From: Thermoplasmatales archaeon SM1-50
Lineage (GTDB): Archaea; Thermoplasmatota; E2; DHVEG-1
Reading direction: 5' to 3'
Assembly: GCA_001595945.1 (NCBI GenBank)
Contig: LSSI01000073.1
Location: 1-35,327 of the forward strand
Length of the DNA: 35,327 nt
Shown: positions 2,792 to 22,210 of the stretch, piece by piece
Layout of the letters: each line of letters opens with the position of its first letter
How positions within the stretch are numbered: the first letter of the stretch is position 1
The notes under the pieces: model-generated
Databases searched by the model: none
Seen by the model: the letters and a program-made list of their open reading frames with translations, nothing else
What the model was told of the DNA's origin: nothing
Translations under genes and position numbers: made by a program

Positions 2792-5158
2792 CTACCGCAG
2801 GTTCAAGACAAAAGGGCCAAGCAGGAAAGTAGTCATCGTCTTTTCGATCTCATCAGCAGTGACAATAACATCCACCGCGCCAAAACCAAACAAAAAACTG
2901 GTTTGCACTTTGGGACTAAATCCAGGTAAAATCTTGGAAAACGTTCCTGTGGTCTGTCGTCCTAGGAGAACCAGCCCACCATCAAGAGAAATCGACCAGG
3001 AGACATTCGTTGCCTCTCCAGCACCAACGTTCTTTATCTCAGCGGCGATACTTCCAAAACCACTCATAATCGCACCAATCTCGATACGAGGTATCGCAAG
3101 AATATGAATGGTGGATGCCTCGGACCAATCGCTTTCTAATCCTTCGCTACTGTTATCCTTTGCTTTTACGGTGATATTATACTCCCCAACAAAATTCCAG
3201 GTATGGTTAAACTCAACGGTTTCTCCAGAGGCATATGGTCCAAGCCAGTCACTGATCGAATCTTCCCAGGAAATCATGTAGAACACGTCATCATTCTGTG
3301 CATCAGTGGTACTGGTCGTAAACGAGTATTCAATGCCAATTTCACCCTCCGATGGCCCGTTTGGTTTCTCAGGGATTTCAGGGGGTGTATTAACGCTTGT
3401 TGGTGTCCCACGCCAGACCTTCACCGAGGAATCTCCAAGAACATTGTATGCTTCAAAGTAGTACTGGGTCATCCCACCACCGCTATAATATTGATAAAGA
3501 TAATATAACCCCATGTTTGTCATACCACCAATCGTTTCAAGGTTATCCTCCCACCAGGCTTTAAACATACGTTTTTCTAAGATGTCATCCTCATCCCAGT
3601 ATGAATAATCGCTTGCGCCCCAGAAGGCAAGACCTCCTTTATTTTGAGCACGCAGCCAGGTTTCTCCAAAGCATTCGCTGACTGTAAACTGACCAGTAAG
3701 ACAAGCGTGACTACAAACAAAGGGATACATACCCTCGTTTATCAAAGCATTCACATTTGCCTGAGAGAACGGTGGCCCATCCGCCCAACCTGTAGTGCTT
3801 CCATGACCAGAATAAATCGCAAGACTACGACCATCGTTTAATGCAGCGCTCACCTGAGCAGTAGTCGCCCCATAGTAACTATATAATTTATCACATGTAT
3901 AATTATGAGGATTCAAATACGTATCAACAACATAATTATGTGTTCCCTCAGAAACAAGATGATTATCAGAGGATGCCAAAAACACTGCTTTCTTAATCCA
4001 TGATTCATTTATAAAAACACCTTGCTCATAAAAAACTGTTTTATCCACCATCGCAGTGACCTGCTCTGAGGTTGATGCTGGGAACCTACTAATGATGATA
4101 TCAGCAAAATAGTTACCCGCATCAATAGTGACATAGTATAAATCGGTACAAGTCCCTGTTTTAATCCCAGTCCAAGAGGGGATTTGCGCAGCATCACCAA
4201 CAAGCAAGACATACGCAGGAGGAACAGTCCAATTTTCATATGCATCAATGATATACGCTTTGATATTCTCTTTAGTCGGACCACCAGGGAGATCCACTGT
4301 CTTGGTCACTGTTACAGAAAATCCTAGTGCGTTTTTCCAATCAGAGAGCGGTTGGATCGCGTCATAAAATGCAGTATCAACGATAATTAGATATCCCTCT
4401 TGTCTCGGCCCCATTGTAGTAGTACCCTGTAAATCACCATAGTTGATGAACGATGTTTTAAAGAGGTTCTCAAAAGAGGATGAGGTATACCGATCGATTT
4501 TTTCAGCCGTCATTTGCAGATTACTACCAGGCAGGTTGACACGCACATCACAGTGAGTCATAATTCGCAGTTGCCCAGATACAGGATTGTATTGCACCGG
4601 CGAAATTTCCAGAAACGCAATATTACGTCCTCGCAGCTCACCAAGGACACGGACATCAGCAATCACTGAAGGCAAGAACATATCTGTCGTATAGTATACA
4701 TCATCTCTGCAAAACGAAACAGTCGCACCCTCGACCTTCACAAGCGAGGGTTGCACCGGGAGAATAGACGACGGGAGCTGCAAGTTTTCCAAAGAGGTCG
4801 TCTCCCACGAAACCGTTTCAATAAAAATTTCAGGACTTGCACCAGAGGGAATCTCTAAAAATCGAGAGATGGTTGGAAGTTGAGCTTCACCAACTACTGT
4901 GGATACGCCTTCCTCAGGTAGTTGAAGCGTGGCAAATAATTCTCTTTCAATAATTTGGCTGCCGAAAACAAGACTAGGTGGTGTGATAGTGACCGTAATA
5001 TATGGAACATTTCCATTATGAAATGTCGTTTTCACCGTGTCAGAAAAAACAGCATTCGATGGATGGGATGGTTGAACAGCAGTGACAACCGTTGAAAACA
5101 GAAGTATCAGTGTTACAGTTGCTTGAATAAACATATTTTTCTTACTATTCCATTTCAT
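2792..5158 (-). CDS. Secreted gingipain-like cysteine peptidase (family C25)
   Basis: 788 residues. An N-terminal hydrophobic segment (about 10-28) is a signal peptide. Residues about 45-235 resemble the C25 propeptide. The catalytic region spans about 250-585. The dyad is visible as His452 in YSGHGSTTGW and Cys486 in SHACLTGQF, 34 residues apart; in gingipain RgpB the pair is spaced almost identically. A PKD-like beta domain follows (about 595-688), then a C-terminal domain (692-788) that is plainly homologous to the end of the neighbouring M14 peptidase. Gingipains cleave extracellular proteins after Arg or Lys; the specificity here is not readable. A GGGGAT ribosome site lies just before the ATG and a TATA box about 60 bases upstream. 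The family call is firm; an extracellular protein-degrading role is the natural inference. Confidence 0.9.
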   Translation of the reverse strand: MKWNSKKNMFIQATVTLILLFSTVVTAVQPSHPSNAVFSDTVKTTFHNGNVPYITVTITPPSLVFGSQIIERELFATLQLPEEGVSTVVGEAQLPTISRFLEIPSGASPEIFIETVSWETTSLENLQLPSSILPVQPSLVKVEGATVSFCRDDVYYTTDMFLPSVIADVRVLGELRGRNIAFLEISPVQYNPVSGQLRIMTHCDVRVNLPGSNLQMTAEKIDRYTSSSFENLFKTSFINYGDLQGTTTMGPRQEGYLIIVDTAFYDAIQPLSDWKNALGFSVTVTKTVDLPGGPTKENIKAYIIDAYENWTVPPAYVLLVGDAAQIPSWTGIKTGTCTDLYYVTIDAGNYFADIIISRFPASTSEQVTAMVDKTVFYEQGVFINESWIKKAVFLASSDNHLVSEGTHNYVVDTYLNPHNYTCDKLYSYYGATTAQVSAALNDGRSLAIYSGHGSTTGWADGPPFSQANVNALINEGMYPFVCSHACLTGQFTVSECFGETWLRAQNKGGLAFWGASDYSYWDEDDILEKRMFKAWWEDNLETIGGMTNMGLYYLYQYYSGGGMTQYYFEAYNVLGDSSVKVWRGTPTSVNTPPEIPEKPNGPSEGEIGIEYSFTTSTTDAQNDDVFYMISWEDSISDWLGPYASGETVEFNHTWNFVGEYNITVKAKDNSSEGLESDWSEASTIHILAIPRIEIGAIMSGFGSIAAEIKNVGAGEATNVSWSISLDGGLVLLGRQTTGTFSKILPGFSPKVQTSFLFGFGAVDVIVTADEIEKTMTTFLLGPFVLNLR

Positions 5159-5213
5159 TCTTCGTATCCCCTATAAATTACTCTTATATCAATAATTAAC
5201 ACTAACAAAATTC

Positions 5214-5226
5214 ATATTTATATAGG
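5214..5226 (-). promoter_or_regulatory. TATA box for the C25 peptidase gene
   Basis: On the minus strand CTATATAAATATG lies about 56-68 bases before the start codon. This puts the expected transcription start (about 25 bases downstream) near 5190 and leaves a short leader carrying the GGGGAT ribosome site. Confidence 0.4.
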
Positions 5227-5290
5227 TATCGCCTCTATGAAAAGACACAAGCTGGTTATTTATAAACAAATTAGGGCATCAATAAAAGAA

Positions 5291-7654
5291 TTAATGTTGA
5301 ATAAAAACGAACGGGCCGAGAAGCACCGCTGAAACAGTTTTTTCAGCGGTATCCGCAGTCACAATTATCGTTATCTTTCCAATGCCAAAGAGAAAACCGG
5401 TTCGTATCTGAGGGCTGAATCCCGGTTGTATCTTTGTCAATGTTCCAGTGGTGTTTCGCCCAAAAAGAACCACTCCATCGGTAAGGGAAATTGACCACGC
5501 TACATTCGATGCTTCAACAACACCGGTATTTACCACCCTCGCGGTTACACCGAATCCACCAGTAATTTCTCCGATCTCGAGATGAGGGGAATCATCGATT
5601 TGAACAGTAAGGGGGACAGACCAGCCACTTTCAAGACCAAGGGTATCCTTTGCCTTAACTTTCACAGTATAGGTACCTGCCATGTTCCAACTATGCAATG
5701 TTTCAATAGGAACACCAGAATCAAACGGACCAAGCCATTGGCTTTGCGTGCCATCGCCCCAGGACCACTGGTAGAAAATTTTCCCAGATTCAGGATCGGT
5801 TGTTGTAGTTGTATATGGATAATCGACGTTCGTTGTACCGATGATAGGACCTGTAGGTTTAACAGGGTTGTTTGGAGGTTGGTTTGCGTTCGCAGCAGCC
5901 AGGTTCTCCACTGCATCGATATCAACACCAGGGTTAAGATCACTAGGATTGCCGTCTCCATCATCAACGATCTTCACATAATGTGCTGACTGTACTGAGC
6001 CACTAGCAAGATCGAACTCTGCTGTTCCCATTCCGGTTCCAAGAAACACCCAAGGACCCTCCCAAGAATCTGATACGTACACGGAGTACCCATCGCTTGT
6101 TGGTCCTGCCTCATATACCTTAAGATCGTTTTCATCAGGGAGATCTGTCACGGGGTCAAGCATATCCAAAATAATGTATCCTGTAACACCAAGCGATGCA
6201 CAGACTTCATCAGGAGATCCTAGCGACGCGATACCTTCAGTTGGGTTGTTCGCATAATTATCAGAAGGAGCATAGTACGCGCACGTTGTCACTTGGTACG
6301 CATAGTACTGATTCGAGGGTTCCAATGAAACATTTAACACCGTTGGATTTCCGGATTCAACATCAACACTGTAAATTTCTTCCTCGAAACCATTTGCTTG
6401 AAAATGAACGACGTAGCTCCCTGGAAGTAGGACGCGATGGTAATCCCCGACCTCAGGATCGGAAAAACAAGGCCAAAACGCTTCTTCGACCCACACAGTC
6501 GCAGCGATGGGCAGACCTGTATTTTCGTTGGTTATGACACCCGTCAGACCCATGTCTGCTGCTTCGATAATCTCCATCATCGCATCACGATTCAGGCCCC
6601 ATGCTTGAGGGATATTCGAGTTTTGCACTTCAATCGTCCAGTCAATATCACCACGGCAGCCATAACTAAAATCATTACAATCCCCTAAGGTCTGGTACCA
6701 ATCGTATCCCTCAACAACCCAGTACCCATTATGAGAACCATATTGATTGGAAAGATACACGACGGCTGCGTTATCAGGCACCGGTTGTGTTTTATGATTC
6801 CAGATATAATTTACAATATCACCTGAGGTATGAAATGACAAGGACAAGACGTAATTATTGAGAAGAGCGTTGTTTCTCATCGCCTGTGTCTCTGGTTCAG
6901 AATAGGGTGTTGAACTCTGCGGCATGTATCCGTAATTCCTATTCAAATCCACCCCATGGGCATTGTATCGAGTACCTGCTTCCCGTCCATCAGGGTTCAC
7001 CATGGGAATAACCCAAATCTCCCGGTTATCTACCAAAGCAGTAATCGCAGGATCGATGCTGTAATTCTGAACTAAATGATAGGCAAGTAAAAGAGGTAAC
7101 TCCGCGGACATATATTCATTGCCATGATGAAGACCGCAGATGCGCACCTCTGCTTCATTTTCCTCTGAATCAGGGTTGTCCGTTATTTTCAAACCCCAGA
7201 TGGTTCTTCCCTGCACGCTTTGACCAAGGCTATATAAACGTGAAATGATAGGATAATTACTTGCGATGTTCTGAAGTTCGGTGGTCATTTGAGTATATGA
7301 GTGAAAATCACGTTCAAAGGTAGGAGAGTATTTCCACCCGTGTTCTTCTGCAAAATCGTCCGGTACTATTTCTGGAGAATACCCCATTGCTGATAGCCAG
7401 CTGAATTCCTGGGTTGAGATAAGGGCAATCACAAACGCTCTTGATCGATCAATCTTCAAAATAGTGATTTTATTCTGAATAATTTCATCAAGACTGTTTG
7501 ATTCTGTAAGAGGAATAGAAACAACGATAGAATTTAAAGAATAGTTTGTTATTTGTTGTGCGGTAAGAAGTCCACCTGCTATGAGAGACAGCATCAGGCT
7601 AAAAAAAACACAAAAAGAATAACTTTTCCTTAATAATGAACTATTTCTATTCAT
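5291..7654 (-). CDS. Secreted zinc carboxypeptidase (family M14) with PKD and shared C-terminal domain
   Basis: 787 residues, signal peptide about 10-32. The M14 catalytic domain spans about 110-365. Zinc ligands are His177 and Glu180 (GLHHGNE) and His275 (LSFHTSG). Substrate residues Asn238-Arg239 sit in GVDLNRN and the catalytic glutamate is Glu342 in DWTIEVQ. Then come a carboxypeptidase regulatory-like beta domain (about 370-445), a discoidin-like region (about 456-585), a PKD-like domain (about 596-688, SWGDG) and the C-terminal domain (691-787) shared with the C25 protein. A GGGGGAT ribosome site precedes the ATG. The enzyme would release C-terminal amino acids from peptides outside the cell, complementing the endopeptidase 132 bp downstream. 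All M14 catalytic residues are present, so I expect activity. Confidence 0.9.
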   Translation of the reverse strand: MNRNSSLLRKSYSFCVFFSLMLSLIAGGLLTAQQITNYSLNSIVVSIPLTESNSLDEIIQNKITILKIDRSRAFVIALISTQEFSWLSAMGYSPEIVPDDFAEEHGWKYSPTFERDFHSYTQMTTELQNIASNYPIISRLYSLGQSVQGRTIWGLKITDNPDSEENEAEVRICGLHHGNEYMSAELPLLLAYHLVQNYSIDPAITALVDNREIWVIPMVNPDGREAGTRYNAHGVDLNRNYGYMPQSSTPYSEPETQAMRNNALLNNYVLSLSFHTSGDIVNYIWNHKTQPVPDNAAVVYLSNQYGSHNGYWVVEGYDWYQTLGDCNDFSYGCRGDIDWTIEVQNSNIPQAWGLNRDAMMEIIEAADMGLTGVITNENTGLPIAATVWVEEAFWPCFSDPEVGDYHRVLLPGSYVVHFQANGFEEEIYSVDVESGNPTVLNVSLEPSNQYYAYQVTTCAYYAPSDNYANNPTEGIASLGSPDEVCASLGVTGYIILDMLDPVTDLPDENDLKVYEAGPTSDGYSVYVSDSWEGPWVFLGTGMGTAEFDLASGSVQSAHYVKIVDDGDGNPSDLNPGVDIDAVENLAAANANQPPNNPVKPTGPIIGTTNVDYPYTTTTTDPESGKIFYQWSWGDGTQSQWLGPFDSGVPIETLHSWNMAGTYTVKVKAKDTLGLESGWSVPLTVQIDDSPHLEIGEITGGFGVTARVVNTGVVEASNVAWSISLTDGVVLFGRNTTGTLTKIQPGFSPQIRTGFLFGIGKITIIVTADTAEKTVSAVLLGPFVFIQH

Positions 7655-8089
7655 AGAGTTTAAATATCCCCCTTCATATTTAATTTAAATATTCTATTCT
7701 GCATATTGTATTGTTTTTTTAATTAAACGAAGAACGAGTTTAAGATTCGTGTTCATTTAATGCAAGTGTGTTGTCAAACCCTATAATCCTATTATTATTG
7801 ATATGTTATATTATATTATCTATATAGGGACTACCCCCATATATACATATCGTTGTTCACCATCCTCTCAATAAATTGGGAATATCTCACTGAAATTTAC
7901 TAAACTGTTTTTATTATAAGGTGATCTTGCTTATGATTGGTTTCAACAAACAAGTTCTATTAGAATACTCAGAGTAGCCGCTATAGGATATTTATACGAA
8001 AGTAAGGCATTTAAAGCACCAAAGCATTAGGTAACATGGAGATGTAACCCACAAAAATAGAATAGTTTAGAGGGTTATGATGGGATGAT
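7655..8089. other. Divergent intergenic region, 435 bp
   Basis: No gene is seen. The left end serves the M14 gene (minus strand; AT-rich TTTAAATTAAATATG around 7678-7693). The right end has TATTTATAC at 7989-7997, a plausible TATA box for the plus-strand 8090 gene with a leader of about 70 bases. The middle (7800-7850) is very AT-rich with repeated TATATTAT motifs. Confidence 0.5.
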
Positions 8090-9304
8090 ATGCTGGATAC
8101 TGCTGATGTTTGTAAAAAAATTATAGAGACAATAATTGATATAATCGGAAGAAAAACATCACAAGAGTATGCCGCAGTAACTATAAGAAAGCTTTTAAAA
8201 AAATTACAACGAACCTATCCTTTTTTACAATATATTGAAATCAAAAATACTCGCTCTTTGGAACTTGAAGATACTGTAGCAGTAAATGAATCAATCAATG
8301 ATGTTCATCCAAAAAAAATTGGAAAAGCCTTAAAAGAAATCATGAAGGTTCTTATGAATTCGCTGGGAAAAACTGCAGGTTATTTTTTTATTAGAGAAAC
8401 GCGAGAGAAAATAGGTATCAAATATGATATAATTCTCCAAAAAAAGATGGATGTTGATTTAACATTTATGCAGTCTACCTACCTAGTGGAAAAACAAATA
8501 ATAAATCTCTGTGATATTCAAAATTATGATATAATACGACGTTTTATAAAAACTCTCATTGACGTAGTAGAGAAGCAAACATCAAAAACTTTTGCCATAC
8601 GGTTTATTGCACAACATGTTGATGCTTTACGAGAATCACATCCATGCTTCAGTTATATCACAATCACCGATGTTCGTGAAACCCTTGGATCTGAAGAGGT
8701 AGTCGTCCAGCAGGAAATCAACAACATTGATAAACAGGAAGTAGGGAAAGCGATCAATGCAATCCTCAAAGATATCGAGCAAACACTTGTAGATCTTGGC
8801 CGGAATTCTATCGCAGGTACACTAAAAATGCATCTGACCATAGAATATCTTGCGAAACTACGGAATATGGGGGTTATTATTACTCCATACAATGTGAGCT
8901 ATAGTGCGATGTTTATTGAGGTCATCAAAACATTAATCCATATTATTGCAAAGACAAGAAGGGAAAATGATGCTATTCTCACGATCAATGAAATTCTCAG
9001 AAAAATAGATAACACATATGAATTCCTTAGACAAATCAAAGTAGAGCCGGCAGCAAATCAAGATGATCTTTACCACATTGTGATTACACGCGACATCGAT
9101 AGAGTCAGCGAAGGCGATGCTCGACGAGCAATACAAGAACTCCTTGAGAATATTATAGAATCCCAAGAAAGAGAATTACGCGGTGAATTCATTCAAGAAT
9201 TTAAGCAATCTCTAGATAAAAAATATCTTTCACGGATTGAGGAACTCGGTGTTAATCTTCATCTAATTGAGTTACATCAAGTACTATTAAATCAAAGAGA
9301 ATAA
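8090..9304 (+). CDS. Triple-repeat protein of an unrecognised ~125-residue domain, beside a histidine kinase
   Basis: 404 residues, soluble, no signal peptide or membrane segment. It consists of three copies of one domain: about 1-130, 143-272 and 273-400. Each copy starts with an amphipathic helix (I..II.TLI.II), then A...I..IL..L...Y.FL..I.I, an acidic link, (N/R)(E)I(N/D).V....G.AI..IL..I..S, and ends (F)FI.E....L...YL..I..MGV.L. Copies 1 and 2 keep IN.V/IN.I and the MDVDL/MGVII tail; copy 3 ends ELGVNLHLIEL. A single-copy homologue lies at 22440-22889. I do not recognise the family. It precedes the kinase gene by 84 bp on the same strand, so a role as sensory, scaffolding or output partner of that kinase is a reasonable guess. 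The start follows GGGATGAT; the other nearby ATGs are out of frame. Confidence 0.85.
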   Translation: MLDTADVCKKIIETIIDIIGRKTSQEYAAVTIRKLLKKLQRTYPFLQYIEIKNTRSLELEDTVAVNESINDVHPKKIGKALKEIMKVLMNSLGKTAGYFFIRETREKIGIKYDIILQKKMDVDLTFMQSTYLVEKQIINLCDIQNYDIIRRFIKTLIDVVEKQTSKTFAIRFIAQHVDALRESHPCFSYITITDVRETLGSEEVVVQQEINNIDKQEVGKAINAILKDIEQTLVDLGRNSIAGTLKMHLTIEYLAKLRNMGVIITPYNVSYSAMFIEVIKTLIHIIAKTRRENDAILTINEILRKIDNTYEFLRQIKVEPAANQDDLYHIVITRDIDRVSEGDARRAIQELLENIIESQERELRGEFIQEFKQSLDKKYLSRIEELGVNLHLIELHQVLLNQRE

Positions 9305-9388
9305 AGCAATAATATGAAATAAAAATCGTATCAAATATGATAAAAAAAGAAAAAACCATCAAAAGCTAGAATCTGAAAAAAAGTATAT

Positions 9389-10867
9389 ATGACATGCAAA
9401 AATAATATCCCACCTAAAATCCCTCTTAAAAGATTAATAGAGCCTCAAAGAACCATGAACGATTCCTTCGAACTGAAAAAATTTATATTCGGTCGAATTG
9501 ACGTAAAACTTACATTACTCTTTCTTTTAGTAGGCTTGATTGCCCCAGGAATCGGAATCGGATATTTCTATTTAATCGCAAATTCATTTTTGATTGAGAA
9601 TTCAGAATTCTTCCGTCAACAACAAATGCTTTTAAATGCCTCTGCTCTCCTTATCATTCTACTTATCGCAGTCAATACGATGATCATCGGATTTTTAATA
9701 TCTCGTTCGTTTTCAAAACCAATCCGCCACCTCTATAAAGCAACACAGGAGCTGGAGAAAGGAAATTTTAACGTCAGGACAAATATAAAAACAAAGGATG
9801 AACTTGCCCAACTAAGCGATGCATTTAATCGAAGTGCTTTTGCATTAAGTAACATGGAGCAAGAACGAATCAATCTTGATAAATCAAAATCAGAGTTTCT
9901 AAGCATCACCTCTCATGAATTACGTACTCCAATCACGCCTCTTAAAGTTCAATTACAAATGTTACAGCAAGAATATTTCGGTAAGCTTACAGAAAAACAA
10001 AAAGAAAGCCTTGAGGTGATACTCCGAAACACGGAGCGGCTTAACAAAATTATAGAGGATTTCCTTGAGGTATCACGCATCGAAGCTGCGCGACTAAAAT
10101 TCATATTTAGATACACCAATGTATCAGACATAATCAAAGAAACCGTTAAGTTTATGAACGGGTTTGCAAAGCAAAAAAACATCTCGCTTATGATAATCTG
10201 CGGAACACTTCCAAGCATCGAAGTAGACCCAGACCGAATTAGTCAAGTCTTACGAAACCTGATTCATAATGCCATTAAATTCTCCCCAGAAAGTAGCTCT
10301 ATTGAAATCGGTGCACAAGTGAAAAAAGACTTCATTCGATTCAGCGTAAAAGATAAAGGAGTTGGATTGAACGCAGACGACCAAATCCGTATATTTGAAC
10401 CATTTTACCAAGTCAATGGTTCACCGAGTAAAAGTTATGGGGGAACCGGGCTTGGATTGACGATTTGTCGAGGTATCATCGAAGCACAAAAAGGAAAAAT
10501 ATGGGTTGAAAGCACCCCTACTGTCGGCAGCACATTTTATTTCACCATCCCTCTCAGACCAGTGTATATTATCGACCCCATTAAAATCCTTTTCTCAAAG
10601 AAAGAAGACATTGAAAAGAAAATACATAACGAACTGATGAACACCCTTGGACCAATGGGTGAAATCGAGTTTAACGAATTGAAACAAAAGCATTCTCTGA
10701 ATAAGGATGATCTCTTTGAATATGTTGCCACGTTGGAAAAACAAAGCATCCTTCGCCATATACATGCAGAGAAATTAAAAAGAAATATTGGAAATATTTT
10801 TTGTATAGAAGATCAAAAAGAAGAAAAATTACAAATCCATAAAGAACTACCAGGAGATAAAAGGTAA
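9389..10867 (+). CDS. Membrane sensor histidine kinase with extra C-terminal helical domain
   Basis: 492 residues. There are two membrane segments (about 41-65 and 82-104) with only a short loop between them, so no sizeable external sensor. A HAMP domain follows (about 103-155), then the dimerisation/phosphoacceptor domain with His176 in SHELRTP. The ATPase domain has an N box (Asn294 in LIHNAIKFSP), G1 box DKGVGL (322-327), F box IFEPFY and G2 box GGTGLGL (351-357). All catalytic elements are intact. Residues about 395-475 extend beyond the usual end; LGPMGEIEFNELKQKH followed by LEKQSIL resembles a winged helix. Met23 (9455) is an alternative start, since neither site has a clear ribosome site. 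No response regulator lies in the window. It ends 4 bases before the HAMP-PAS gene, so the two are surely co-transcribed. Confidence 0.9.
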   Translation: MTCKNNIPPKIPLKRLIEPQRTMNDSFELKKFIFGRIDVKLTLLFLLVGLIAPGIGIGYFYLIANSFLIENSEFFRQQQMLLNASALLIILLIAVNTMIIGFLISRSFSKPIRHLYKATQELEKGNFNVRTNIKTKDELAQLSDAFNRSAFALSNMEQERINLDKSKSEFLSITSHELRTPITPLKVQLQMLQQEYFGKLTEKQKESLEVILRNTERLNKIIEDFLEVSRIEAARLKFIFRYTNVSDIIKETVKFMNGFAKQKNISLMIICGTLPSIEVDPDRISQVLRNLIHNAIKFSPESSSIEIGAQVKKDFIRFSVKDKGVGLNADDQIRIFEPFYQVNGSPSKSYGGTGLGLTICRGIIEAQKGKIWVESTPTVGSTFYFTIPLRPVYIIDPIKILFSKKEDIEKKIHNELMNTLGPMGEIEFNELKQKHSLNKDDLFEYVATLEKQSILRHIHAEKLKRNIGNIFCIEDQKEEKLQIHKELPGDKR

Positions 10868-10871
10868 GGAA

Positions 10872-12035
10872 ATGAAATTGAAATGGTTACTGACCGTTAT
10901 GTGCCTAGTGATTTCATTAATACCTATTGCTATGATCATTGGGTTGCAGGGTCTAGAGATAGCTACAAAATTTCTTAGTTTGATCATATTTGTCACCCTT
11001 ACAATTGCATTCATCGTCTCATATTTTATCTCCATACCACTTGTAAAACTAACAAAGAACATTGATGAAATCAGCAAAGGTAATTTAGATGTTGAGCTGG
11101 AGAAAAGTGAGATATATGAAATCAATAATCTAACGAATTCCTTAGACCGGGTAATGGCAAGTCTAAAACTAGCTATCAACAAAGTAGGTGTGCAAAAAGA
11201 CGAGATATTTGAAAATGCGATAAAAGCAAAAGAGCAGGTGGAACAGAATTTCGAGAATTTGCTAAAAAAAATAGATGGATGGATCTGGGAGACTGACGAA
11301 AAAGGAATATGTACACTCTGCTCGAAAAAAGTAACCGAAACACTTGGCTATTGCCCAAAGGAACTTATTGGGAAAGATATATGTGGGTTCCTTCACTCTG
11401 ATGATGCAAAGAAATTAAAAGAAAATATTTTTACGATTTCCCGCGACAAGCGCACTGTCACAAACAAATTAGATTTATACTGGAAAGAGAAAACAAATAA
11501 AGAGCCAGTTTGGGTTCGCACATTTGTCATCCCCGTGTTCAACACCACAGGTACTTTCCAAGGTCTACGGTGTTTTAGTAGGGATGCAACCGATTATAAA
11601 GCCACAGAAAATACGATAGCAGAACTTCAAAAAAAAATAGGGGAATTAAACAAGCAGTTACATGAGATTAGCAGACAACCGGATAAACAATCCTCTTTGT
11701 CAAAACCTATCAACGAGACAGTAACAAAGCAGGAGTTTGATTATATGATTCTTTTTGATGAAAAAACAAAAATCGTTGATTGCACTGACGATATCGAGAA
11801 GAAACTTGGATATAGTAAAAAAGAGATGTTATCACTTACTTTTTCTGATGTCGTCTACCTTGAATCGCCTAACAATATTAAAGCGAGTTTAGAAGAAATC
11901 AAGAAACAAGGAAACAAATATATAAAGGACATTCATAAGAAGAAAGATGGTTCATCGATTTTTGTTAGTGAACAAATCAGGTATCTCAAGGATCGAAACG
12001 TGTTCATCTGTATGGTGAAACAGGAAATTTTTTAA
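10872..12035 (+). CDS. Membrane HAMP-PAS-PAS sensor protein lacking a kinase domain
   Basis: 387 residues. Two membrane helices lie at about 5-25 and 34-54. Then come HAMP (about 52-105), a coiled coil (about 105-130), PAS domain 1 (about 130-242, starting DGWIWETDEKG and ending in a PAC-like FSRDATDYK), a coiled coil (243-268) and PAS domain 2 (about 290-385, LGYSKKEMLSLTFSDVV). The protein stops at the end of the second PAS; no His-kinase, cyclase or methyl-accepting domain follows. The start has a good site (AAGGTAAGGAA before ATG) and lies 4 bases after the kinase gene. The upstream kinase has membrane and HAMP parts but no PAS, so the two may form one receptor through HAMP/coiled-coil contacts. 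That partnership is inference. Confidence 0.85.
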   Translation: MKLKWLLTVMCLVISLIPIAMIIGLQGLEIATKFLSLIIFVTLTIAFIVSYFISIPLVKLTKNIDEISKGNLDVELEKSEIYEINNLTNSLDRVMASLKLAINKVGVQKDEIFENAIKAKEQVEQNFENLLKKIDGWIWETDEKGICTLCSKKVTETLGYCPKELIGKDICGFLHSDDAKKLKENIFTISRDKRTVTNKLDLYWKEKTNKEPVWVRTFVIPVFNTTGTFQGLRCFSRDATDYKATENTIAELQKKIGELNKQLHEISRQPDKQSSLSKPINETVTKQEFDYMILFDEKTKIVDCTDDIEKKLGYSKKEMLSLTFSDVVYLESPNNIKASLEEIKKQGNKYIKDIHKKKDGSSIFVSEQIRYLKDRNVFICMVKQEIF

Positions 12036-12135
12036 CGGTTCTTAGAAGAGATCCCTTTCATCTATTATAAGATAGACTTTTTCTTAGTTAACCATCAACT
12101 ATTTATGGGGATGTTATATCAGGAGTTTTGAGAAA

Positions 12136-13344
12136 ATGACAATAAAGGCATCGAAGCGTGCACAAGGCATTGAGTATGCGATTCGGGATGTCCTGCTCCC
12201 AGCTCGGCAGTTAGAGAAAAAGGGAATTACGATTTTGAAATTAAACATCGGTGACCCAAACGCATATGATTTCGATACACCACAGCATATCAAAGATGCG
12301 TTATATACAGCAGCAAACGAACAGCATAACGGCTATGCACCTTCAGAGGGGGTGTTGGAATTACGTCGTGCAATTATTGAGAGGGAACGGACCAGAAATA
12401 ATATGTCCTATGAACCTGATGATATCTGTGTGACGACCGGGGTGACGGAAGGCCTCCAGATGCTTCTCAACGCGTCTCTAGAACCAAAAGACGAGCTATT
12501 GATTCCAGGACCTACCTACCCACAGTATAACGTGATAACAAAGTTTGCCGACGCTAAACCAGTTGCATATCATTGCATTGAAACGGAGAACTGGCAGCCA
12601 GATATCGATGATATCCAGAACAAAATTACAGAACACACCAAAGGAGTTGTTCTTATTAATCCAAATAACCCCACTGGTGCATTGTACTCGAGGAAGGTGA
12701 TAAAGGAGATCCTTGATATCGCGGGTGAACATACTCTTATGGTTATCTCTGACGAGATCTATGATGATCTTACCTTTGATGGTAAACAATACGCGACAGC
12801 ATCTCTTACAAATGATGTTCCTGTCATAACGTTTAACGGATTTTCAAAAGTATACGTCATGCCAGGCTGGCGTATCGGGTATACCATGTTCAAACATACT
12901 GGAGAGCTTGATGAAATCCAAGATACGTTCCTGCGTATTGCGCGATCACGTCTCTGCGCAAACTCGGTCTGTCAACAGGCATGTATCCAAGCACTGCGTG
13001 GTCCACAGAATCATATTGAGCAGATGAATGAGAAATTACGAAAGCGACGTGATTTCTCCTATAAACGTCTGAACGAAATAGAAGGCATTTCCACGGCAAA
13101 ACCGGATGGAGCGTTTTACATCTTCCCTAAAATCGAGGCAATGGGGAAAGGACCTTGGAAGAACGATAAGGAATTCGTGCTTGATTTATTACAGGAAGCA
13201 CATGTGCTTACAGTAAATGGGTCAGGGTTTTGCGAAACATATGGGAAAGACCATTTCCGAGCAGTGATTCTTCCACCGATGGAGACGTTGGAGAAGGCGT
13301 TTGATGCGATGGAAGTATTTATGAAAAAAAGCTTAAATCACTAA
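12136..13344 (+). CDS. Class I/II PLP-dependent aminotransferase (alanine/aspartate type)
   Basis: 402 residues, full length for fold-type I aminotransferases. The PLP-binding lysine is Lys238 in FNGFSKVYVMPGWRIGY. Other signature residues are YAPSEGVLELRRAI near 67, PGPTYPQY (125-131), NPNNPTGALYS (175-185), SDEIYDDL (205-212) and a C-terminal Arg in HFRAVILPP. The GWRIGY form resembles the AlaA/archaeal AspC group that transfers amino groups between alanine, aspartate or glutamate and 2-oxoglutarate or pyruvate; the exact substrate cannot be read. The gene lies upstream of the 2-oxoacid ferredoxin oxidoreductase on the same strand. Together they would turn amino acids into oxoacids and then acyl-CoA. 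AGGAG lies 11 bases before the ATG. Confidence 0.92.
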   Translation: MTIKASKRAQGIEYAIRDVLLPARQLEKKGITILKLNIGDPNAYDFDTPQHIKDALYTAANEQHNGYAPSEGVLELRRAIIERERTRNNMSYEPDDICVTTGVTEGLQMLLNASLEPKDELLIPGPTYPQYNVITKFADAKPVAYHCIETENWQPDIDDIQNKITEHTKGVVLINPNNPTGALYSRKVIKEILDIAGEHTLMVISDEIYDDLTFDGKQYATASLTNDVPVITFNGFSKVYVMPGWRIGYTMFKHTGELDEIQDTFLRIARSRLCANSVCQQACIQALRGPQNHIEQMNEKLRKRRDFSYKRLNEIEGISTAKPDGAFYIFPKIEAMGKGPWKNDKEFVLDLLQEAHVLTVNGSGFCETYGKDHFRAVILPPMETLEKAFDAMEVFMKKSLNH

Positions 13345-13383
13345 TACAGCACCCAGCGGAATTCCAATATCATGATTGTTTTC

Positions 13384-13391
13384 TTATAAAT
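13384..13391 (+). promoter_or_regulatory. TATA box upstream of the 81-residue protein gene
   Basis: TTATAAAT lies 47 bases before the ATG at 13438. Transcription is expected to start near 13412, which leaves a short leader containing the ribosome site GAGGGT. Confidence 0.4.
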
Positions 13392-13437
13392 AAGAATATA
13401 ACTTACGAAATGATTCTCTTTTACGAGGGTTACTAAA

Positions 13438-13683
13438 ATGCAGGATAAAGAACAAAACATGTTTGATAGACAAAAATTCCTTGATTATAAAGCCATGGAG
13501 ACCAAACTGTATGGAGAAATGCTGAAATTATGTCGTTTTTATCAAAACAAGCTAAGTCTTATCTCCATTTTGGGTATTTTGACGCTGGTCAGTCAAGAGA
13601 TAAAAGAGTTAGATAAAACAATTCTTAAACACATTGATGGTGAAACCATCGACGATCAAGATCCGATGAATCGATTAATGTAA
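13438..13683 (+). CDS. Small helical protein of unknown function
   Basis: 81 residues with a good ribosome site (GAGGGTTACTAAA before ATG) and its own TATA box, so it is probably real. The sequence is predicted mostly helical: a charged N-terminus, a middle stretch (KLSLISILGILTLVSQEI) that could be a buried amphipathic helix but is marginal for a membrane span, and an acidic end. I do not recognise the family. It stands alone between the aminotransferase and the thiamine-binding-type gene. Confidence 0.6.
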   Translation: MQDKEQNMFDRQKFLDYKAMETKLYGEMLKLCRFYQNKLSLISILGILTLVSQEIKELDKTILKHIDGETIDDQDPMNRLM

Positions 13684-13742
13684 ACGGTTTTCACGTTTTT
13701 CGGTGTAGTATTTTTGTTTTTCTGAGGTGAAAACGAGTATTT

Positions 13743-13753
13743 TTTTATAAAAG
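13743..13753 (+). promoter_or_regulatory. TATA box for the 13859 gene and perhaps the oxidoreductase genes
   Basis: TTTTATAAAAG stands out in a T-rich stretch that also serves as the downstream tract of the preceding small gene. It lies about 105 bases before ATG 13859. The following genes are tightly spaced (33 bp, then overlaps), so this promoter may drive all five. Confidence 0.4.
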
Positions 13754-13858
13754 GACATATATTAGAATAAATATTATATATAAAATGTAGTAGATAGAGT
13801 GATTTTTTATCAAAAGGTTAATGAAGAAAAGATCGTTGGAGAGAATGAAGGAAATTAT

Positions 13859-14146
13859 ATGATTATCGCATCACTTAGCATCGCACCACTTGGAAAGGGT
13901 ACTAGCGTAAGCACCTATGTAAAAACCGTCATAGAAATCCTAAAAAAAGAGCACGTGACATTCCAAACAAACGCAATGTCAACCGTTATTGAAACAAAAG
14001 ATCTTGAAACCTTGTTTGAAATTGTTCAAAAAGCACATATAGCTGTAGTAGCTGCGGGAGCAGAACGAATTATAACAGAAATAAAAATTGATGATCGGAG
14101 AGACAAACAAGTAACCATAGGCTCAAAACTCGAATCTCTGAAATAA
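13859..14146 (+). CDS. MTH1187/YqgV-family protein (thiamine-binding fold)
   Basis: 95 residues. The N-terminus MIIASLSIAPLGKGTSVSTYV and the later VETKDLETLFEIV-type segment match the small ferredoxin-like MTH1187 family (Pfam thiamine-binding, formerly DUF77). The family usually starts MI(V/I)A..S..PLG.G.S, so ATG 13859 is chosen; an in-frame GTG at 13799 would add 20 residues with no family counterpart. GAAGGAAA precedes the ATG. Members bind thiamine-like ligands and have no known enzymatic activity. Its place 33 bp upstream of a thiamine-diphosphate-dependent oxidoreductase is suggestive but not proof of a link. Confidence 0.8.
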   Translation: MIIASLSIAPLGKGTSVSTYVKTVIEILKKEHVTFQTNAMSTVIETKDLETLFEIVQKAHIAVVAAGAERIITEIKIDDRRDKQVTIGSKLESLK

Positions 14147-14179
14147 TCATATGAAGATAAGAAGCTTCAAAACAGTTAT

Positions 14180-14800
14180 ATGGGACATCTTCATTTCGAG
14201 TTGCGGGACGGTAACATTGTGTCAACAAAATCCTTAGTCGAAATATGTTTCCACGGACGAGGCGGACAAGGAGCAGTCACTGCGGCTAACCTTCTTGCAA
14301 GTGCGGCTTTACAAGATGGTAACAAAGGTGTACAAGCCTTTCCCTTTTTTGGCGCAGAACGACGAGGCGCCCCAGTTAGAGCATTTACCAGGATCTCTGG
14401 AGAAGAGATACACTTACGAAGCGAAATCTACAACCCTGATATCGTGATTGTTCTCGATGAAAGTATCATGGAGCTTGTCGATGTGATTAAAGGATTGAAA
14501 GACAATGGAAAAATCATTATCAATACTAGAAAAAAACCAACGGATTTTGAGTTCTTTCATCAGTATAATGTCGCGACTGTCGATGCAACTGGCATCGCCC
14601 TTAAATATGATATTCTTGTCGGGGGAATCCCTGTGGTCAACACCCCCATTCTTGGTTCGGTACCAAAAATATTAGATCGTGTCACACTACAATCAATACA
14701 ACAGGTAATAATTAGGAAATGGACTGGGAAAAAAGAGCTTAGCGAACGTAACGTGAAAGCAACACGAGATGCATATGATCAAACAGAGGTGAGTGTTTGA
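14180..14800 (+). CDS. porG: 2-oxoacid:ferredoxin oxidoreductase, gamma subunit (pyruvate/2-oxoisovalerate type)
   Basis: 206 residues from ATG 14180. The conserved region begins only at about residue 14 (VSTKSLVEICFHGRGGQGAV), so GTG 14219, preceded by GGACGGTAACATT, is an equally good start. Gamma-subunit signatures are GRGGQGAVTAANLLA, FPFFGAERRGAPV and a Rossmann-like VIVLDESIMELV. This subunit helps form the CoA-binding part of the complex that oxidatively decarboxylates a 2-oxoacid to acyl-CoA and reduces ferredoxin. The gene order gamma-delta-alpha-beta is that of four-subunit archaeal POR/VOR enzymes. It overlaps delta by 4 bases. Confidence 0.9.
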   Translation: MGHLHFELRDGNIVSTKSLVEICFHGRGGQGAVTAANLLASAALQDGNKGVQAFPFFGAERRGAPVRAFTRISGEEIHLRSEIYNPDIVIVLDESIMELVDVIKGLKDNGKIIINTRKKPTDFEFFHQYNVATVDATGIALKYDILVGGIPVVNTPILGSVPKILDRVTLQSIQQVIIRKWTGKKELSERNVKATRDAYDQTEVSV

Positions 14801-15072
14801 AGAAATTTTCTGTTGAAACCAGTCTGTCCTACCCAAAAAAAGGCGCAATGGGAAAAACTGGTAGCTGGCGTGTGTTCAAACCGATTCTTGACAAAAAAAA
14901 ATGTGTCAAATGTCTCCGGTGCTGGATCTTCTGCCCAGAAAGCTCCATTCATCGTGAAAAAGATGATTCTGTAAGTATCGACTATGAATTCTGTAAAGGC
15001 TGTGGCGTATGCGCCAATGAATGCAATGTCAAAGCAATTATCATGGAACGAGAGGAGGCGAAGAAAAATTGA
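14797..15072 (+). CDS. porD: 2-oxoacid:ferredoxin oxidoreductase, delta (ferredoxin-like) subunit
   Basis: 91 residues, the normal delta-subunit length. Two classical [4Fe-4S] motifs are present: CVKCLRCWIFCPE (from about 36) and CKGCGVCANEC (from about 66). These clusters pass electrons from the catalytic beta subunit to ferredoxin. Translation starts at TTG inside a TTGA overlap with the gamma stop, which indicates translational coupling. The N-terminal GAMGKTGSWRVFKPILDKKKC is typical of this subunit. Confidence 0.93.
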   Translation: MKKFSVETSLSYPKKGAMGKTGSWRVFKPILDKKKCVKCLRCWIFCPESSIHREKDDSVSIDYEFCKGCGVCANECNVKAIIMEREEAKKN

Positions 15073-16223
15073 CGATTATGATAGATACCGGGAACCGGAT
15101 TGCAGCAAAAGCAGCGATCATGGCCAAACCAGAGGTCGTAGCAGCATACCCGATTACCCCGCAGACGACGTTGGTCGAAGCGATTGCCGAATATGTCGCT
15201 CGCGGAGAATATAAAGGAGAGTTTATCTGCGTAGAAAGTGAGCATTCTGCGATGTGTGCCTGTATTGGAGCAAGTGCTGCGGGCTCACGTACGTTTACAG
15301 CCACCTCCTCCCATGGATTATTACTGATGCATGAGATGCTCCATTGGGCTGCTCTCGCAAGACTGCCTGTAGTAATGTGTAACATTAATCGTGTCATAGG
15401 GCCAGGATGGAACATTTGGACAGATGAAAATGACTCCATCTCACAGCGTGACACCGGTTGGATTCAATTCTACTGCAGCAGCAACCAAGAGATTTTCGAT
15501 ACTGTGATACAATCATTCAAGCTTGCGGAGCATGAAAAAATCGTACTACCGGTGATGATAAATCTTAATGCATTTATCCTGTCTCACACCTCCATGCCGG
15601 CGGAGATTCCTGAACAACGAGTTGTAGATGAATTCCTCGGTAAGCATATAGCACACTGGAAAAGCGATATCGACAACCCAACGACATTTGGAAACATCAT
15701 TGGTCCTGCATACTATTATAAGGTCCGACGGGCGATGCAACAGTCACACTTACGTGCAAAAAAACTAATCCCCCAGATAGCGAAAGACTGGAAAAAATCT
15801 TCAGGGTACTTTCATGGTGATCTACTTGAATATTATAAATGCGAGGGAGCTGAAGATATTCTCTTATCCATGGGTGCGATTGGTGCAGAAAGTAAGATTG
15901 CTATTAACGAGCTTCAGAATGAAGGACAAAAGATTGGTCTTGCCCGTGTTCGAGTATTACGGCCATTTCCCACAGAGGAAATCATCAAATTAGGCAAACA
16001 AGCGAATCTTATAGTAATTGATAGGAATATCTCGGTTGGTTTAGAAGGCGTGCTCTTTAACGAGGTTAAAGCAGCCTTATTCGGCACATCTGATATTAAA
16101 GCAACAGGCTTCATCGCAGGTCTTGGCGGAAAAGACGTCACTTATAAGGACATCAAGAGCATGTGCAGAAAAGCGATACAAGGAACAAGTAAAGCCCAAG
16201 AATGGTATGCGATGGAGGACTAA
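15069..16223 (+). CDS. porA: 2-oxoacid:ferredoxin oxidoreductase, alpha subunit
   Basis: Alpha subunit of about 384 residues. Key stretches are AAYPITPQTTLVEAIAEYV, VESEHSAMCACIGASAAG, TATSSHGLLLMHEMLHWAA and the POR/VOR-type DSISQRDTGW. The start is set at TTG 15069: it overlaps the delta stop as TTGA, exactly like the gamma/delta junction, and GAGGAGG (15052-15058) sits 10 bases before it. ATG 15078 is possible, but the site would then be 19 bases away. An upstream in-frame ATG at 15021 lies deep in delta and is unlikely. Whether the substrate is pyruvate or branched-chain oxoacids cannot be decided by eye. Confidence 0.9.
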   Translation: MTIMIDTGNRIAAKAAIMAKPEVVAAYPITPQTTLVEAIAEYVARGEYKGEFICVESEHSAMCACIGASAAGSRTFTATSSHGLLLMHEMLHWAALARLPVVMCNINRVIGPGWNIWTDENDSISQRDTGWIQFYCSSNQEIFDTVIQSFKLAEHEKIVLPVMINLNAFILSHTSMPAEIPEQRVVDEFLGKHIAHWKSDIDNPTTFGNIIGPAYYYKVRRAMQQSHLRAKKLIPQIAKDWKKSSGYFHGDLLEYYKCEGAEDILLSMGAIGAESKIAINELQNEGQKIGLARVRVLRPFPTEEIIKLGKQANLIVIDRNISVGLEGVLFNEVKAALFGTSDIKATGFIAGLGGKDVTYKDIKSMCRKAIQGTSKAQEWYAMED

Positions 16224-17138
16224 ATGATGAGGTTAAAAGATTTTCCGGTTGACGAGTGCCTTCTTCAAGGAAACGCAGCATGCCCAGGATGCCCGGCAAC
16301 AATCGGACTACGCCTGGTGTTAAAGGCACTAGGAAAGAAAACGATTATGGTTGTGCCTGCGTGTTGTACGTCAGTCATTGAAAGCCTCTACCCTCACACC
16401 TCGTTTGACATCCCGGTTATGAACATTGCTTTCGAGGCAGCAGCAGCAGGTGCATCCGGTGTGGAGGCATCGTTACGGCAGCAGGGACGGACTGATATTA
16501 CTGTTGTTGCCTGGGCCGGAGACGGAGGAACGTACGATATCGGTCTCCAGGCACTCTCCGGAGCGCTTGAACGAGGCACCAACTTTATTTACATTTGTTA
16601 CAACAATCAGATATATTCCAATACAGGTATTCAACGTAGTGGAGCAACCCCGTATGCCGCGTGGACAACAACCACCGTTGGCGGGAAAAACGAGCTTCGT
16701 AAAGAGATGGGCGATATCATCCTTGCCCATCACATCCCATATGCAGCGCAGACTTGCATAAGCTACCCAGAGGATGTTTTTAGCAAAGTAACAAAGGCAA
16801 AGAACATCAAAGGACCCAAATACATAGAAATCCTCGCACCCTGTCCGCCTGGTTGGCGGTTCAGCATGGACAAGACCGTAGAAATGGGACGTATGGCAGT
16901 TGACTCTGGTGCCTGGGCATTGTGGGAATGTGAAAATGACAAGATGATATTTAATGGTAAAAGCAAGCTTATCCTAGAGAAAAAAATCCAGCGGAAACCC
17001 GTGGAGGACTGGATAAAGTACCAGGGCCGGTTTGGACATCTTTTTAGACCACAGCGAGATGAGAAACGACTTAAAGCAATCGAAGAATATGTAGATAGTC
17101 TTTGGGATCGTTATCGGAAATGTTATCTAGGGAAATAA
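16224..17138 (+). CDS. porB: 2-oxoacid:ferredoxin oxidoreductase, beta (TPP-binding) subunit
   Basis: 304 residues, standard beta-subunit length. The thiamine-diphosphate motif is AGDGGTYDIG (98-107) with the closing ICYNN (124-128). Cysteines for the [4Fe-4S] cluster are Cys20 and Cys23 (NAACPGCPA), Cys47/48 (PACCTS) and a later one in LAPCPPGW. SNTGIQRSGATP is the typical POR/VOR stretch before the metal site. The gene begins directly after the alpha stop (TAA ATG); GGAGG lies upstream within alpha. A second ATG at 16227 is also possible. It ends 5 bases before the convergent pantoate kinase gene. Confidence 0.93.
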   Translation: MMRLKDFPVDECLLQGNAACPGCPATIGLRLVLKALGKKTIMVVPACCTSVIESLYPHTSFDIPVMNIAFEAAAAGASGVEASLRQQGRTDITVVAWAGDGGTYDIGLQALSGALERGTNFIYICYNNQIYSNTGIQRSGATPYAAWTTTTVGGKNELRKEMGDIILAHHIPYAAQTCISYPEDVFSKVTKAKNIKGPKYIEILAPCPPGWRFSMDKTVEMGRMAVDSGAWALWECENDKMIFNGKSKLILEKKIQRKPVEDWIKYQGRFGHLFRPQRDEKRLKAIEEYVDSLWDRYRKCYLGK

Positions 17139-17143
17139 GGAAG

Positions 17144-18016
17144 TTATCGTTCATGTAAAACCCGTGCACCTTGCTCATCAATCATACAACAATACACCTT
17201 TCCAAATTGTGAAAGAATTTTACAGAGTGCCAAGGTATCTCCCACCGCAAACACGGAGTTACCCAGCATACACATGCTTGCCATACCTCTTCTGTTTGCT
17301 GAGTTTACTACTTGAAGTGTTTTTTTGTCAGCGATACCAATATTTTTTGTAAATTCCAAACCAAGAGTTAGCAGAAACTCAAGTGTCGGTTTTTGCAATA
17401 GTTTTTTTGTACAATATCTCCCATATGATACAATCTTGTTAAGCTTTGTTGTATCGGTAAGAATTTTTTTTGTCTCAATCTTCTTCCCAATTACACAGAG
17501 AACAATTTCGTATTTGCCAGGGATATGTTCAAGCATTCCCCATGGCGGTAACCCTGCCTTACGTCTGATCTCAATTCCACCAAAGCTACTGGCAACCACA
17601 TCACCAAGTCCCGTATGTGATGTTATCTCAGCATAATGCGCAGCTTTTACTGCGTCCTCCCTAGGAAGATTAAGAAGATCAGAAAGCGCAAGGGCTGCAC
17701 TTAATGCTCCAGCTGCGCTCATACCAAACCCTTGGCTTATCGGAAGATCCACCACCGTATTAACTGTAATTCCAATTGATGTATCACCAATGAGATAATT
17801 CAATGCTAGTTTTGTAACCGCTGCAGAAGATGGTTTACCATTGACATGAACAGAGATAGTCCGTTGGGATGCAGGTGTTACCATCACACGACTAACTGCA
17901 CCCATGGAAAGAGCAATGCCAGCACCACGGGAACCACACCGGTCCATCCCTTGTTTGGAGTATACTGGTTCAAAAAACGCAGAAATATGCCCAGGTGCAA
18001 ACGCAATTCCCTTCAT
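17144..18016 (-). CDS. Pantoate kinase (archaeal PoK, GHMP superfamily)
   Basis: 290 residues. The opening FAPGHISAFFEP and the GHMP phosphate-binding loop PISQGFGMSAAGALSAALAL (92-111) match archaeal pantoate kinase (COG1829). In archaea this enzyme phosphorylates pantoate before condensation with beta-alanine by phosphopantothenate synthetase, replacing bacterial pantothenate kinase. THTGLGDVVASSFGG (133-147) is another family stretch. It lies 16 bp downstream of CoaBC on the same strand, so two steps of CoA synthesis form one operon. The neighbouring oxidoreductase uses CoA but is on the opposite strand. Confidence 0.92.
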   Translation of the reverse strand: MKGIAFAPGHISAFFEPVYSKQGMDRCGSRGAGIALSMGAVSRVMVTPASQRTISVHVNGKPSSAAVTKLALNYLIGDTSIGITVNTVVDLPISQGFGMSAAGALSAALALSDLLNLPREDAVKAAHYAEITSHTGLGDVVASSFGGIEIRRKAGLPPWGMLEHIPGKYEIVLCVIGKKIETKKILTDTTKLNKIVSYGRYCTKKLLQKPTLEFLLTLGLEFTKNIGIADKKTLQVVNSANRRGMASMCMLGNSVFAVGDTLALCKILSQFGKVYCCMIDEQGARVLHER

Positions 18017-18032
18017 ACATCTCGTTGTCCAA

Positions 18033-19229
18033 TTATTGTATTAAATCAAGAATAACTGACGCAAGTTCTTCTTTTTTTCCTTTCCGCCAAATAGCTTTTC
18101 CATTTTTCGAAAGAAGAAGAACCTCATTATGCTCACTTCTGAACCCAGTAAGCGTATTACCAACAGCACCGTTGAGATGATATTTTGTCAGAAGTTGTTG
18201 CGTTTTTCGTTTCACATCGGTCTTCCGATCTTCTGTTTTAAATGCAATGACACATGCATCCGGAGCTTTTAAACGGATTAGCTTAAGAACAACCGGTGCC
18301 TGGATACAATCAATCGAAAATTTCTTTTTACCTGAAGGAATCTTTCCTTTCTGTTTTTGTGGGATATAATTCGCAATCGCTGCACAGACAATGATACAAT
18401 CGTAACATTTCAATTTCTTATTTTTCAATAAATTAAGAAGATCACCGATCGTCTCGAAGCGTTTGAAAGGAATAAACGAAGGAACAGGTTCTGATGCAGA
18501 TCCGTACCACAGTTCCACCTGAGCACCTCGCTCAAAGGCATTGATACATAACGAGACCGCTGTTTTTCCAGAGCTACGATTCGTAAGCACCCGGATATCG
18601 TCAATTGGTTCAGCAGTCGCGCCACCAATGACAAGTATCTTTTTATTAAATAAATCTTGTTTTCCGATTGTCCGAATAACGACTTCCACGATCTCAGAAA
18701 CAGTAACAATCTTTGCCTTAGTGCCAGAAATGTTCGGATCAAGAAAGAGCACGCCATGGTTCTTGCAGATGTCAATATTTTTTTGAACAATTCGATGGTC
18801 ATACATCGACAGATGCATCGCAGGAACACAAAGGATCGGTACCCCTGAACCAATGGCAGTAGTAGCACAGGTAGTTACTGGTGTATCATCGATACCATGG
18901 GCAATCTTTGAGATTGTATTCGCGGTACAAGGGGAGATCAAAAGAAGATCAACAGGATCTGTCACCAGCCCGCACCAGGACACATGCTCCGTCTGACCTG
19001 AAAGTTGAATCACAGGAGTATTCCCAGAGGCAAATTCTAACGCATCAGGATGCAGAATTCTAGTCGCCGCTGGCGTCATGACCGGGTAGACAACCGCGCC
19101 ATGACGAATAAGCTCCCGAGCCAATTTAACACATTCAACCGCCGCGATACTCCCAGTCACCCCAAGAACAATGCGTTTATGAAGAAGTGTGTTATTTTTT
19201 TTCCCGCGTAATTCCTTTGCAGGATGCAT
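18033..19229 (-). CDS. coaBC: Phosphopantothenoylcysteine decarboxylase / phosphopantothenate-cysteine ligase
   Basis: 398 residues, bifunctional. The CoaC part (about 17-190) is a flavoprotein decarboxylase: IVLGVTGSIAAVE at the FMN site, catalytic His82 in EHVSW, Asn104 in SPCTANTISKIAHG (the PASANT-like motif) and AMHLSMYDH (substrate clamp region). The CoaB part (about 195-398) has GGATAEPIDDIRVLTNRSSGK, AAIANYIP and an AFKTE loop. It joins cysteine to 4'-phosphopantothenate and then decarboxylates the product. At the place of the bacterial active-site flap cysteine I see SGTKAKIV with no Cys, which I believe is usual in archaeal versions. The ATG is 18 bp after the USP stop. Confidence 0.93.
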   Translation of the reverse strand: MHPAKELRGKKNNTLLHKRIVLGVTGSIAAVECVKLARELIRHGAVVYPVMTPAATRILHPDALEFASGNTPVIQLSGQTEHVSWCGLVTDPVDLLLISPCTANTISKIAHGIDDTPVTTCATTAIGSGVPILCVPAMHLSMYDHRIVQKNIDICKNHGVLFLDPNISGTKAKIVTVSEIVEVVIRTIGKQDLFNKKILVIGGATAEPIDDIRVLTNRSSGKTAVSLCINAFERGAQVELWYGSASEPVPSFIPFKRFETIGDLLNLLKNKKLKCYDCIIVCAAIANYIPQKQKGKIPSGKKKFSIDCIQAPVVLKLIRLKAPDACVIAFKTEDRKTDVKRKTQQLLTKYHLNGAVGNTLTGFRSEHNEVLLLSKNGKAIWRKGKKEELASVILDLIQ

Positions 19230-19247
19230 TTCATCACAATTCTTTTT

Positions 19248-19688
19248 TCATCGTACGACCAGCACTGATCTGCTTGCATGGCGTACAACCTTGTCTGTTA
19301 CACTCCCAAGTAAAAATCTTCCCTCTTTACCGTACCCCTTATAACCGACAAGGATAATATCACTTTCATATTTTTTCGCAACAAGCAGAATCTCATCAGC
19401 AGGGTCACCTGCTTCAACTGCGATATCGACCTTACCTATTTTTCCTTCTAGATTTTTTGCGATTTTCCCAAGACTTTCCATTGCCTTTTCCTTAAAGTTC
19501 CCAGGGGTTACAACAGTACTTAAATCAATAGTTGGTAGCAGCATATTGGTAAATGTTGATTCAACTAATGCAGCAGGGATGACCGTTAGGATGACAAGTT
19601 CATCATCAGGAGTTGAACACTGAACTGCTACATCAATGGCCTTGGTTGAAGCTTCTGATCCGTCATAGGCGACAAGTAGTCGTTTCAT
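19248..19688 (-). CDS. Universal stress protein (UspA family)
   Basis: 146 residues, single USP domain. LLVAYDGSEASTKAIDVA opens the fold and the ATP-binding signature G-x2-G-x9-G(S/T) appears in GYKGYGKEGRFLLGSVTDKV near the C-terminus, so this is an ATP-binding type. USPs act as small nucleotide-dependent stress factors; no partner can be named. It lies 18 bp upstream of coaBC on the same strand, so it is probably in the same transcript. Confidence 0.9.
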   Translation of the reverse strand: MKRLLVAYDGSEASTKAIDVAVQCSTPDDELVILTVIPAALVESTFTNMLLPTIDLSTVVTPGNFKEKAMESLGKIAKNLEGKIGKVDIAVEAGDPADEILLVAKKYESDIILVGYKGYGKEGRFLLGSVTDKVVRHASRSVLVVR

Positions 19689-22206: not shown

Positions 22207-22210
22207 GATG

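Follow-up and report, generated by a model that had tools for sequence, protein, structure and literature searches.

The window analysed here is a stretch of 35,327 nucleotides, contig C73 in the 2.09 Mb draft genome of Thermoplasmatales archaeon SM1-50. An open reading frame at positions 8090-9304 on the plus strand encodes a protein of 404 amino acids that consists of three diverged copies of a helical domain of about 135 residues, which we term DOM. By profile, the copies R1, R2 and R3 cover residues 1-137, 140-274 and 268-404 (positions 8090-8500, 8507-8911 and 8891-9301, plus strand). Their mean identity to each other is 21-23% among 30 such triple proteins, in which the architecture of about 404 residues is conserved. 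A first-pass annotation made from the letters alone had described three tandem copies; this count is correct, but a fourth copy in the window was overlooked, a single-DOM protein of 149 amino acids encoded at 22440-22889 on the minus strand, where it has no two-component neighbour. Used as a query, this separate protein recovers all three repeats (R1 with E=1.2e-20, R3 with 1.2e-9 and R2 with 8e-5), and the repeats are therefore not a profile artefact. Two further DOM proteins, each with a C-terminal extension, are encoded elsewhere in the source genome. In three genomes, G000 (window 8090-22889), G006 (L039) and G010 (L053 and L092), a triple and a single-DOM gene occupy opposite strands at a distance of 12-16 kb.

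The triple gene is followed by a histidine kinase gene (9389-10867, plus strand). Its product has a membrane N-terminus, HAMP (2.2e-11), HisKA (3.9e-20) and HATPase_c (1.8e-29) domains and a conserved C-terminal extension, and it lacks a PAS domain, as had been noted. The next gene (10872-12035, plus strand) encodes the kinase-less HAMP-PAS protein of the earlier description, a membrane protein with a weak HAMP match and two PAS domains. It occupies the same position in orthologous clusters and is a candidate sensor partner. The kinase extension (10544-10864, plus strand) comprises about 100 residues after the HATPase domain with the motif LGPMG..EFNELK.K.AL...DL. It has no match in Pfam or the PDB; 12 orthologues share it in conserved form, whether or not a triple gene adjoins them. 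Beside the signalling cluster, two adjacent large peptidases are encoded on the minus strand (2792-7654), a gingipain-type C25 peptidase (2792-5158) and an M14 carboxypeptidase with PKD (5291-7654); a gene of the size of the M14 gene adjoins the cluster in the relatives L041 and L052, too. The source genome contains three HisKA kinases, two of which adjoin DOM genes.

No receiver (REC) domain was found on the window contig. The orthologous clusters L041, L046, L048, L051, L052 and L053 have a REC-only gene oriented divergently to the triple gene, and the corresponding site in the window is the intergenic stretch 7655-8089, where we searched for a receiver remnant and found no trace. Since the orthologous clusters carry the receiver and this stretch is empty, the absence of a response regulator is a local loss. 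The earlier statement that the cluster has no response regulator is accurate for the window contig and does not describe the system, because relatives have a REC gene beside the triple. The source genome has other receivers, none of which belongs to the clade of triple-linked RECs described below. At L039 in G006 (13892-16653) a frameshift interrupts the kinase, and of the divergent receiver a fragment of 67 amino acids is left. An assembly error is a possibility; this state is possibly an intermediate of the receiver loss seen in the window.

Scans of DOM against Pfam, NCBIfam and PHROGs matched no family, and 61 members compared with Pfam-A gave nothing approaching the cut-off. MoaD, CtsR_C, DUF5751 and HEF_HK were rejected as names for the domain, their matches being weak, at chance level and inconsistent between members. 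A PDB sequence search found no relative and gave a match to a designed helical pore (E=0.78). Structures were predicted for the single DOM and for one DOM protein with a C-terminal winged helix (L116). With an alignment of 27 rows, AlphaFold2 modelled the single DOM at pLDDT 87.8 and pTM 0.81, with eight helices (6-21, 27-41, 46-50, 70-74, 77-94, 97-110, 113-121 and 126-148) and two short strands (51-53 and 66-68). Foldseek matched this model to nothing in the PDB at better than E=0.8; matches to ferritins were rejected (TM about 0.2). Against viral structures nothing above TM 0.39 was obtained among the matches listed, and a scan of viral contigs revealed no DOM relative. DOM proteins are not response regulators themselves: they have no Pfam REC match, the model has a different fold, and among the DOM proteins examined there is no DOM-REC fusion. 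The known archaeal output domains of the HalOD, MetOD, NitrOD and TackOD groups that have a Pfam model were not matched either. Hence the domain is as unrecognised as the first-pass annotation had it, in profile libraries, PDB sequences and fold comparison of the single-DOM model, and the profile scans did not place the repeats in any described family. DOM would add a protein family without recognisable relatives and possibly with a new fold.

With a 61-row profile, DOM was detected in 36 of the 45 genomes examined in the window's archaeal family (Thermoprofundales/MBG-D type). No match came from 35 genomes elsewhere in the same class or from the 248 other-family genomes among 293 drawn evenly from the phylum Thermoplasmatota. 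An alignment of DOM-winged-helix proteins served as query for a pattern scan across 84,980 species genomes, the sole scan beyond the phylum, with a sensitivity below that of the profile; it returned 25 loci. All of these are in MAGs labelled Thermoplasmata, Thermoplasmatota or Euryarchaeota. A pattern scan of genome contigs with the triple protein as query gave no match, its peptide patterns being probably too specific. Named carriers include Thermoplasmatales archaeon SG8-52-3 and isolate 3300003432D, both classed as Thermoprofundales (MBG-D) (PMC6461988). The nine genomes of the family without DOM still carry kinases and receivers, so that co-occurrence of DOM and two-component genes at the level of genomes is uninformative.

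After deduplication the family comprises 30 triples, 38 DOM-winged-helix proteins (including a few truncated forms), 13 singles and 2 doubles. The C-terminus of the DOM-winged-helix proteins is a winged helix by predicted fold, which makes DNA binding a putative function. In the L116 model (pLDDT 72) DOM is followed by a three-stranded sheet and a helix and then by the winged helix, and Foldseek relates this C-terminus to the DNA-binding domains of MarR and CggR with a probability of 1.00 at a best E of just 0.02. A profile search with the C-terminus gave no significant match. The likeness to MarR and CggR is confined to this predicted part of the relatives; neither of the window's own DOM proteins, the triple and the single, contains it.

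In a tree of 143 DOM copies, the winged-helix copies all fall in one clade (support 99), and R1, R2 and R3 group by copy position across proteins and not within a protein (9 label changes versus 85 after shuffling). The triple form thus most likely goes back to a single event that predates the radiation of the family. Four polar positions, R23, R/K24, T25 and E106 (single-DOM numbering), show conservation across winged-helix copies, singles and R1, whereas R2 and R3 have lost them; R23 and E106 are present in all 30 R1 copies, and the window's R1 retains the complete motif. One canonical copy is thus kept per protein. R2 is the most diverged copy, and R3 has a conserved set of its own that includes N125 and H127, a histidine found in 87% of triples and not conserved in other DOM copies. 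A helical domain that adjoins kinases and receivers could be a relay domain similar to histidine phosphotransfer (Hpt) proteins. We regard this as very improbable, since no histidine column exceeds 25% over the 143 copies, and the model combines its helices with two short strands and has no Hpt structure among the top fold matches. These results largely refute a canonical DOM as Hpt; the histidine of R3 leaves room for a narrow version that concerns this copy.

Gene neighbourhoods connect DOM to two-component signalling. In six genomes for which receivers and kinases were listed in full, 13 of 25 DOM proteins are encoded less than 2.5 kb from a kinase or receiver gene versus 1.06 expected. This is 12 times the expectation, and none of 200,000 simulations reached the observed number; the statistic was built from receiver and kinase search matches. 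Four layouts recur. In the first, to which the window's cluster belongs, the receiver is divergent from the genes for triple, kinase and HAMP/PAS protein. In the second, kinase, REC and triple genes follow each other in one direction, and most co-directional REC-triple gaps measure -7 to +40 bp. The third has the order REC, kinase, DOM-winged-helix with gaps of 4-11 bp between kinase and DOM gene (L057, L061-L063, L066, L074 and L080). In the fourth, DOM genes have no two-component neighbour; some of these triples lie beside Lhr-type helicase and HMG-CoA synthase/thiolase-like genes, and some DOM-winged-helix genes adjoin deoxyhypusine synthase. At L154 (5172-5861) and L036 (7374-7781) the gene order is kinase, REC, triple, REC, and at L154 an extra DOM fragment of 94 amino acids follows the second REC.

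The first-pass annotation had proposed a signalling partner domain beside kinases. The association with two-component genes is borne out, and a lack of association between homologues and kinases, for which the neighbourhoods were checked, did not emerge. Among the DOM-winged-helix proteins 18 of 38 have no two-component neighbour; the same applies to 10 of 30 triples and to 10 of 13 singles. With about half of the DOM proteins in this situation, DOM is not simply a kinase partner. Among the 20 triples that are linked to two-component genes, 18 have a REC gene within about 0.7 kb, counting one fragment. The other two are L044, on a contig that stops 248 bp upstream, and the triple of the window, whose receiver has been lost. 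The constant neighbour of the triple is a stand-alone REC, not a kinase.

The phylogenies of the neighbours differ in depth. Compared with 39 background RECs from six genomes, the triple-adjacent RECs form one clade (4 label changes versus 16.3 after shuffling, 0/500); the REC profile was made from DOM-linked RECs and the background was drawn with the Pfam REC model. The triple-adjacent kinases belong to at least two deep clades split by branches with 100% support, and the kinases beside DOM-winged-helix genes add several more. In the close relative G005 the kinases are retained at L140 and L141 and both DOM genes are gone; L140 has the same kinase without a triple. One REC clade, several kinase clades, triples with a REC and no kinase (four in the stretches examined) and the DOM-less kinases of G005 together point to the receiver as the putative partner of DOM, as judged from gene linkage. 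The same observations make it unlikely that DOM contacts the histidine kinase itself as an adaptor, inhibitor or sensor subunit, with the receiver as an operon bystander. Such a contact would nevertheless explain why DOM adjoins a kinase with no receiver nearby in the window and at L082, L086 and L088, why gaps between kinase and DOM gene are often below 12 bp, and why triple and kinase persist in the window after the loss of the receiver.

Most receivers in these genomes are stand-alone proteins (48 of 58 REC matches in six genomes lie in short stand-alone frames) and need an output partner in trans. We consider it an even call that DOM is a lineage-specific helical interaction domain of one Thermoplasmatota family that reads the state of REC-only response regulators in trans, with the DOM-winged-helix proteins as a split output and the triple as a hub or modulator. 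The kinase would phosphorylate the REC-only protein, and phospho-REC would dock on a canonical DOM copy. In the DOM-winged-helix proteins the docked receiver would control the DNA-binding domain, so that receiver and output of the response regulator are separate proteins. In the triple protein the docking site for the receiver would be R1; the altered R2 and R3 would probably form a scaffold or a second interface, so that the protein would act on this REC as a hub, sink or modulator. The most specific version, in which a new fold reads phosphorylated stand-alone receivers, the split response regulator separates REC from winged-helix output, and an ancient three-copy hub modulates the same receivers, is tentative and somewhat more likely wrong than right. 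Binding of DOM to REC, its dependence on phosphorylation and the direction of regulation are what we infer beyond the linkage itself. The window's genome keeps triple and kinase without a receiver of the triple-linked clade, and this, together with the many DOM genes that have no two-component neighbours, weighs against a flow from kinase via REC to DOM.

These solitary genes could also be explained if DOM sensed a ligand or mediated dimerisation in one-component regulators and the adjoining two-component genes were simply other regulators. Nearly half of the DOM-winged-helix proteins and the majority of singles are solitary, some contexts are metabolic and conserved, such as deoxyhypusine synthase or the Lhr helicase/HMG-CoA synthase-like genes, and the four conserved polar residues could line a pocket. 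We judge this reading improbable, since the linkage far above expectation recurs with distant kinases and the triple is accompanied by a conserved REC subfamily in different operon layouts.

The proposed route from kinase via REC-only protein to DOM agrees with a published account in which protein-protein contacts are the main mode of action of archaeal two-component systems (PMC5847659). Stand-alone receivers make up about 40% of archaeal response regulators, and for most of them no function has been inferred (PMC5847659). The output domains HalOD1, HalOD2, MetOD1-5, NitrOD1-5, TackOD1 and AcidOD1 resemble DOM in their narrow range, several copies per genome, many stand-alone forms and ties to two-component systems (PMC5847659). 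However, these domains were defined by fusion to REC (PMC5847659), whereas DOM is unfused in every protein examined, has no Pfam match and occurs in an ancient triple and in winged-helix-fused forms. In the methanogen systems FilI/FilR1/FilR2 and LtrK/LtrR an archaeal kinase likewise signals to a winged-helix/HTH regulator, and FilR2 is REC-only; FilR1 and LtrR combine REC and the DNA-binding domain in one protein (PMC5847659), unlike the DOM system, in which the two are on separate proteins. Receiver and DNA-binding protein are also paired in Thaumarchaeota, where REC-only genes occur divergent from genes of ArsR-type HTH proteins, but these pairs involve another DNA-binding family and no DOM and are reported as occasional (PMC5847659). 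New here would be a two-component system whose output or adaptor domain is separate and had not been described before. One REC subfamily accompanies DOM in combination with distantly related kinases, and another version of DOM is fused to a putative DNA-binding domain; the domain thereby offers a concrete, testable answer on the function of REC-only proteins in an abundant sediment lineage. It may be a missing link from archaeal signalling to gene control.

A possible target of the DOM-winged-helix regulator comes from a comparison of L141 in G005 with L063, L057 and L074. G005 has neither the DOM-winged-helix gene nor the convergent gene for a NosD/PKD surface protein of about 1225 amino acids at this locus but retains REC and kinase; the regulator may act on the surface-protein gene.
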